Shown here piece after piece: positions 58,701-61,700 of a stretch of 64,000 bases of DNA. The DNA is from Siphonodentalium dalli (taxonomy: Eukaryota > Mollusca > Scaphopoda > Gadilida > Siphonodentaliidae): positions 38,102,732 through 38,166,731 of the forward strand of contig CP136065.1 in assembly GCA_032622095.1 (NCBI GenBank). The letters run 5' to 3'. A model generated the notes under the pieces. It saw nothing but the letters and a program-made list of their open reading frames with translations, did not search any database and was not told where the DNA came from. Positions within the stretch are counted from its first letter, which is position 1; each line of letters begins with the position of its first letter. Position numbers and translations under genes: made by a program.

Positions 58701-61700
58701 AAAGCCCTTTAATCAAACGCCTAATTTATTTTTGAGAAGGTCGTAATAGCGTAATTCTGCAATGGTCCATCTCCTGTTCCGCAGTTTAAATTGATCAAGT
58801 GTAGAATTCCCCATTAGTGATGTAATTCAAATCCGGTTGTTTCTATTTACCGCTCATGAAAACTGACAAAATAGTATTTTCCAAATAGTTTGTTATATTA
58901 TCAAGGAATTATATATTTATTTGCCGATCCAAAATGCATTTTGATTCGGAAATATGGTACCTGCTATGTATTTTGAGGTTACTAATATGAGAACTGTTCT
59001 ATATTTTGAGCTTACCAGTATGGTTTCTGCTATACCGGCATGGGATCCCCTCAACGGCCCAGTTTCCCTAGCCAAATTTTCCCCTGTTGAACCGCCAGTT
59101 GATTTTAATTATTAGGGTCCCATTCCCCCAGCCCAGATTTCCCCGGCTACCATACCCCAGGACACATATCATGTGTATAAAAGTATAGAGACGTATAAAA
59201 CTTCTCTCCATCTTGTTGCGATATCAATAAGGAATTTTAGAGGACAACTTTATTTGATATCTTTGCAAGAATACAGACACCGAATGCATTATTACAGAAA
59301 GTGCATACCAGAACTGATATGGTGGCGACATCACCAGAATACATCTCTTTGGAGTTGAGCTAGTTACGTTTTAGTTAGGTTACGAAAATTCGTCAGAAGT
59401 TTTAATTGTACTTGGCGAATGTCTCTATGTTTCCAGTTGTTACGCATCCATATATAAGTTTTATTTTGTTATACTTGAATGAGTACACATTGAGTGTCTG
59501 CAGATTATTTATTTCCAGACTCCACTGTATTTTTTTTACGATCACAATAAATTTCTATAGCTTTTGACGTTAAGATGGTTTGATAGCTTGCCAACTTTGG
59601 TAGAAAATATATGCAGGTAGACCAATCTGTCAATTACAGTATCTTACACTTCTAGATTATAGATCTATATGGCGAAATTATTTACTGGATTTTCCACCTA
59701 GCATCTACCAGCCCCATTCCCCCGAATCCTAGTGGAAACCTTGCTGTATGCTACCAGCTGTTTATTTTTAGCTTACTTGTATACGACCTGTTGTTTATTT
59801 TGAGCTTACTTGTATACGACCTGTTGTTTATTTTGAGCTTGTCTGTATATGGGACCTGCTGTTTAATTTGAGCTTACCTGTATGGGATCTGTTATGTATC
59901 TTAAGATTCTCTAGCCTTGAGAAACACTTTCCACAGACGGGACACCGGTGAGGTTTCTCATTGGTGTGTGTCCGAATATGAATCAACATCTTGTACCTGA
60001 AATTGCAGATATATCAAAGTAGTCTTAATTAACCCTTTGATTGGTGGAAAATATCGAAAAATATCGAAAAATGAATACTCAAGTTATCTGAAACAAGGAC
60101 TACAACTCCAGCAAAATTTGTCAGACCAATCCCATATTCAACTTGCCCTGTGTTTTCTTGTGATTAAACCATATAACTCAAGTTTTGTGTCGATCGAATA
60201 ACAAATATCACCCGGAAGCCAAAAATGTTGACAGCATGATAACATATGATTGTTTTCTAATGGGTGTGTATAAAAATTAAAGTGTCAATGACACTGTAGC
60301 TCAAGCTGGAGAATGGATAATGGCATACATCAAAGTCAATGGAGTGATAAGGAATGCAGAAAGTTGAAATGTTTAAGTAATACTAGAGGTCAAACCGGAA
60401 AGCCATATGACGTTTAGGATTAATCAGATACAAATTATTGGTTGATAGCAAACCAAAGGATTTAGTCATGCATAGAGTAAAATACAAAATGGCTACCAGC
60501 AGCCATAATTTTTATGAAAAATCATTCAAATTCAATAGCTCTCATCTAAAAGATCTGCATGAAGTTTGAGATCAATTTGATGGAAAAATGTTGGTTATAG
60601 GGCGTGACCAATAATTTAGTTATGCAAAGAATAAAATCCAAGATGGCTGCCAGTGGCCATGGTTTGATAAACAAATATTCAAATTTTGGTAGCTCCCATC
60701 TAGAGGTCACTAACAAGATCCATGTGAAGTTTGGGACCAATCAGATGAAAAATGTTGGCTGTAGGGAGCCGAAGGATTTAGTCATGCTAAGAGTAAAATA
60801 CAAAATGACTGCAGGCGGCCAGTTTTTCATCGAAAATCTTTCAAATTATATAGCTCCCGTCTAGAGATTATCATGACCATGCCTGTAAAGTTTCAAAACA
60901 ATTCTTCAATAAATGTGGGCTGAAGAGTGTGCTGATGAATTTCAATATGAAATCCTAGTTGGCTACTGGCGGCCATGTTTTAAAAAAAACGAATTTTAGA
61001 AATTGCTATCTCCCATCTAGAGGTCACCCCCAAGATCCATGCGAAGTTTGGTGACGATCGGATGAGGGATGTGGCCTGTAGGGTGTGCTGAAGGAAATTG
61101 TTGATGGATGCACGCACGCACAGACAACAACCCAAGGCAACAGCTCAAACTTAACTTCATCATGTTGAGCTAACTATTATAATGTAGTAAAATAAGCACT
61201 ATGTTTTTAACCCTTCCGTGACTTGAGCTTCCTGAAATTGTGCGAAAACCCTATGCCAATGCATTCTTTTATATATTTGCCGCATATATATAAAGTGAAT
61301 GCACTGGCACAGGGTCTTTCATGTTGCATAAGCTGAGCTCCCATCATGAAAGGGTTAATCACATGAAAGCTTACATGTATACAAACCTAGCATTGAATCC
61401 TCTGCCCTTACGAGGACATTGATCCCATTTACAGTGATACTCCATGTTTGGTTTTTCTAGTCGGACATGAGCGTCATTCACGTGATTCACGAGATCTTCA
61501 ATGCATGGATACGTCTGCTCACATTTCTCCCACTGACAACCCCAGCTTATGTCAACCTGATCAGAGAGTGGTGCGTCTGATAGGACGATCTGGTAGGAGG
61601 GTGTCAGGCTATCACATATCAGTGGAGAACCACCCACTGTTACAATTTGTGGTCTGGAAGTTTTCTGCAATAATTAAAATTTTTATTATAATTTAACTCT

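Follow-up and report, generated by a model that had tools for sequence, protein, structure and literature searches.

The minus strand of the window (the whole stretch of 64,000 nucleotides that was analysed) carries an animal GLIS/GLI-type five-finger zinc-finger gene. Its coding parts are listed below, with a slash marking each exon-intron border.

61371-61673, minus strand: exon with finger 1 and half of finger 2, within an open frame, reading ...GRGFNA and then AG/GTTTGT
59878-59996, minus strand: 119-nt exon with the second half of finger 2 and the whole of finger 3 (41 residues), ending in phase 1
49559-49740, minus strand: coding part of fingers 4 and 5 in the next exon, starting TTTATTTACAG/GTGAGAAGCC

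The finger-3 exon follows the acceptor tttcag/ at 60002-59997 (minus strand) and is separated from the exon of fingers 4 and 5, which probably continues below 49559, by a phase-1 intron of 10,137 nt. At this junction CAT ACA G/GT GAG AAG encodes the linker HTGEK, and joining the donor to the GTGAGAAGCC exon at 49740 gives HTGEKPY. The five joined C2H2 fingers matched the GLI structure 2gli in a single continuous alignment (residues 5-153 to 3-152, E 2.3e-52). The finger 1 spacing CxxxxC (CQWEKC) fits Gli/Glis and not Zic (criterion from PMC2222250), an assignment that stops at the joint GLIS/GLI type. The peptide at the tail of finger 3 comprises 11 residues that match GLI1 finger 3 (nlkthlrshtg) at all but two. 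At the other end of the intron, the acceptor TTTATTTACAG/GTGAGAA (49750-49735, minus strand) opens on an exon start to which the linker TGEKP lends a donor-like look; its GTGAGA is the second-best GT of the region, and the arrangement at 49740 has the layout of a recursive-splice site.

Several other features were found in the window. An uninterrupted frame of 543 codons at 16936-18564 (minus strand) matches both eukaryotic Pus10 domains and represents a PUS10 without introns, which may be a retrocopy or a gene whose introns were lost. Two near-perfect palindromes at 56557-56725 and 63091-63309 have arms of 84 and 108 nt that are 97-98% complementary and 1-3 nt apart; judged by a common translated sequence, they apparently belong to the same fold-back element. 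Two 16/32-bp minisatellites at 2186-2464 and 3114-3360 (CTCCGAAGGCCC... and CTTCGGAG..., respectively) look like inverted copies of one repeat, and a 121-bp direct duplication with 99% identity at 24797-25040 is either recent or an effect of assembly.

The donor of the finger-3 exon, cccatacag/gtaagctcaa, had been noticed by the first-pass annotation and was located at about 59886-59868 on the minus strand, with the exon ending at 59878. Directly 3′ of it lies a 33-bp array, which TRF reported at 59744-59883 (4.2 copies, 85% matches, score 178) and whose units occupy 59872-59739 on the minus strand. A second cluster with two or three units of the same repeat family is found about 830 nt further down the intron, at 59043-58945 (also seen at about 59021-58953). 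The units and the authentic donor are as follows.

59873-59905, minus strand: unit 0, CTTAAGATACATAACAGATCCCATACAG/GTAAG, 28 coding bases plus 5 donor bases
59872-59880, minus strand: authentic donor CAG/GTAAGC, GT at 59877-59876, the strongest GT of the intron (7.18 bits)
59838-59872, minus strand: unit U1, 35 nt with a 2-nt frame-shifting insertion; next donor decayed to ACAAGC
59805-59837, minus strand: unit U2, identical to U3, ending in the spare donor CAA/GTAAGC (GT 59809)
59772-59804, minus strand: unit U3, ending in the spare donor CAA/GTAAGC (GT 59776)
59739-59771, minus strand: unit U4; next donor lost (CAG/CAAGG)
59011-59043, minus strand: C0 of the second cluster, spare donor CTG/GTAAGC (GT 59015, 5.08 bits)
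58978-59010, minus strand: unit C1 of the second cluster; a weak GTAACC comes next
58945-58977, minus strand: unit C2 of the second cluster; with the preceding AAC, the most exon-like translation (10 residues)

The end of the exon belongs to this series. CTTAAGATACATAACAGATCCCATACAG plus GTAAG makes 33 nt and aligns without offset to the next units (CTCAAATTAAACAGCAGGTCCCATATACAG..., CTCAAAATAAACAACAGGTCGTATACAAGTAAG), and the exonic CTTAAG (59905) and the intronic CTCAAA (59872) stand exactly 33 bp apart in register. The homology between exon end and units claimed earlier therefore holds, in exact register, but it extends over about 28 coding bases (59905-59878) and not over 13. GTAAGC was kept at 59809, 59776 and 59015 and lost at three unit ends. 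The first two of these are the AGTAAGCT ends of the main-array units that had been said to keep a spare agtaagct, and the gtaagct ascribed to the second cluster is present with GTAAGCT at 59015. The observation is real and larger than first described. C0 is probably a remnant of an array unit, its family likeness being confined to CAGAAACCATACTG/GTAAG; its whole 28-mer is matched or beaten at 75 background positions. G-rich stretches that share GGGGGAATGGG flank both clusters (59163-59045 and 59735-59700, minus strand) and may indicate that an insertion or segmental copying took place between the clusters.

The resemblance between exon tail and units was compared with the rest of the window. 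When up to two mismatches were allowed, six occurrences of GTAAGCTCAAAATA were counted across the 64 kb, all inside the two clusters; 0.85 were expected, and none of 100 shuffles reached six. On a profile made from the six intronic units the exon tail scored 24.3 bits over its 28 coding columns, and the best of 127,340 other positions scored 16.0. A profile made from the exon tail only agreed: each of the six intronic units outscored the 127,346 other positions of the window. When only the units of the main array were used the exon scored 22.1 (background maximum 12.7), and with only those of the second cluster it scored 18.9 (background maximum 15.7). Pairwise alignment of the tail with 1 kb of the intron gave a score of 30, which was reached by none of 1000 intron shuffles and by 2 of 1000 shuffled tails; other 28-mers of the finger-3 exon mostly scored 14-18 against the intron, with nothing away from the tail. 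This pairwise evidence is significant but modest. A synonymous-codon null given the exon peptide was not significant (p 0.07-0.25), so the DNA adds little signal beyond the peptide, which is the question this null asks, as distinct from whether tail and units are homologous. Most of the resemblance falls at positions that also determine the amino acids, the pattern to be expected of an exon that was the source and under constraint.

No further copies of the 33-bp unit were found elsewhere in the 64-kb window, and an exact search of IMG/VR gave no match. A dispersed minisatellite carried by a transposon was rejected, as the window holds no other copies and no inverted repeats of at least 20 nt surround the clusters.

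In the frame of the exon, U2 and U3 encode the same 11 residues and U1 encodes 11 residues after its 2-nt insertion is left out; translated U1, U2, U3 and C2 match the finger peptide of the exon tail. Since that peptide is ancient, as its GLI1 counterpart shows, the array was copied from the exon. We consider it probable, at about 0.88, that the array is a minisatellite of the kind called "mirage", produced by a duplication that spanned the border at the end of the finger-3 exon, with unit 0 probably the source. A stretch of 33 bp straddling the 3′ end of the exon, consisting of 28 coding and about 5 intron bases with the GT, would have been duplicated in tandem into the intron, perhaps aided by short homology between the exonic AATCTTAA and AAGCTCAA at the start of the intron. 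Further copies, each carrying its own donor along, would then have been added by slippage or unequal crossing-over, with the second cluster left further down the intron. Selection on the zinc finger would have kept the exonic copy, which retains the best donor, while the intronic copies drifted until three weaker donors remained. Mirages are further marked by length instability, between haplotypes or somatic; here the identity of U2 and U3 only hints at recent turnover.

Two other origins were weighed. Any donor followed by an A-rich intron might resemble the end of its own exon equally well by chance, an idea favored by the A-rich composition and by the shuffled tails that equalled the score in one pairwise test. 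This explanation, to which we assign next to no probability, is already contradicted: no other window position comes near, the register is exact and the peptide matches. The profile scores likewise place the similarity beyond the expectation for any donor plus AT-rich intron; a similarity no better than that expectation was the outcome that, according to the first-pass annotation, would refute its proposal. That annotation left open whether the donor had been amplified into an array or an array had been recruited as the donor. A pre-existing intronic minisatellite that slid into the exon and supplied both donor and exon end would also leave tail and units homologous in register, and register alone gives no direction. 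The tail, however, is GLI1 finger 3 except for two residues, so its coding sequence predates any fast-evolving array; moreover, the units have decayed, with stops and a 2-nt insertion, and within the window the unit is confined to one intron. Recruitment is accordingly highly improbable, and amplification of the donor, in a unit that spans the border, is the reading supported.

Repeat arrays of this anatomy are known from other genomes. In amphioxus, the Adh3 and globin genes (among the latter BflGb6 and BflGb9) harbor so-called mirages, in which minisatellite-like tandem repeats straddle an exon-intron boundary (PMC3087553, PMC3902484), and further ones are known in PGBD5 and troponin C (PMC3902484). 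Their units measure 10-160 bp, AG/GT is present in many but not all of them, and splicing is normal (PMC3087553). The array described here has the structure of a mirage: exon tail plus GTAAG form unit 0 across the boundary, and many units, although not all, carry the AG/GT signal. It differs in residing in a GLIS/GLI-type gene, in its 33-bp units (11 codons) and in its second, detached cluster. The VNTR in intron 18 of human ABCA7 (PMC5954066) has as its first GT that of the exon 18 donor; its 25-bp unit is present in 12 to 427 copies, and the array is polymorphic and disease-linked. When the donor of the next unit is used, exactly one unit is retained, out of frame. Both arrays open with the authentic donor of the preceding exon as their first GT and repeat it in later units, with a frame shift on retention of one unit. 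The present array, in contrast, has about four plus two or three diverged units and clear coding homology; an exonic origin of the ABCA7 repeat is not stated in the portion of the source drawn on here. Internal tandem repeats at exon-intron boundaries were also found in human segmental duplicates by comparing recent paralogues (PMC2812944). These are likewise minisatellites of about 30-bp units in about four copies, able to change splicing, but half of them lie within coding exons. The Rogers model, in which tandem duplication of AGGT segments leads to intron gain (PMC4974935), shares the short duplication bearing a splice signal; there a new intron arises, whereas here only the start of an existing intron was multiplied.

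The 549 GTs of the intron were ranked by means of approximate frequencies for human donors. On this scale the authentic donor ranked first, and the spare GTAAGC donors at 59015, 59776 and 59809 (the last two with 4.02 bits each) ranked 3, 8 and 9; these three array copies are potential decoy donors only. Because the exonic copy is under zinc-finger selection and holds the best donor, it is expected to stay the main splice site. From any of the three spare donors the extension runs through U1 and reaches a TAA after 18 residues, ahead of fingers 4 and 5; use of these donors would therefore be unproductive, and the resulting transcript, lacking fingers 4 and 5, would probably be degraded. Translation of the array as one long frame was excluded by the insertion in U1 and the stops in U4 and C1.

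A role as a splicing regulator, a claim on function that is compatible with the mirage origin, was also considered. The spare donors would give an unproductive transcript without fingers 4 and 5 in some tissues and so tune the level of the factor. The high ranks of the three donors and the stop met by every extended exon agree with such a role, as does the retention of exactly one out-of-frame unit through a second donor in the cited account of ABCA7 (PMC5954066). We consider it unlikely, however: several donors have decayed (ACAAGC, CAAGG, TCCGAA) and amphioxus mirages were reported without disturbance of splicing (PMC3087553, PMC3902484). In addition, the commonest base of the donor columns is kept by 3-5 of the 6 units, and across these units the donor and GT columns have fared no better than the others, which gives no indication that decoys were selected for. 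A poison extension tuned by copy number, in which the spare donors are used conditionally and the number of array copies sets the dose of the regulator through the fraction of transcripts with a stop ahead of fingers 4 and 5, appears very unlikely.

Lancelet genes have already provided examples of mirage minisatellites, and one human gene holds a comparable array. In the present case the direction of copying is clear, since the duplicated segment codes for a zinc-finger peptide conserved throughout the animals. If the host lies outside lancelets, the known range of mirages would be widened. If the array proves variable in populations, it would offer a natural test of competition between neighboring donors; otherwise, it adds one more gene to the short list of mirage minisatellites. 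The array shows how the conserved border of an exon can give rise to an intronic repeat and, with it, a set of latent donors.
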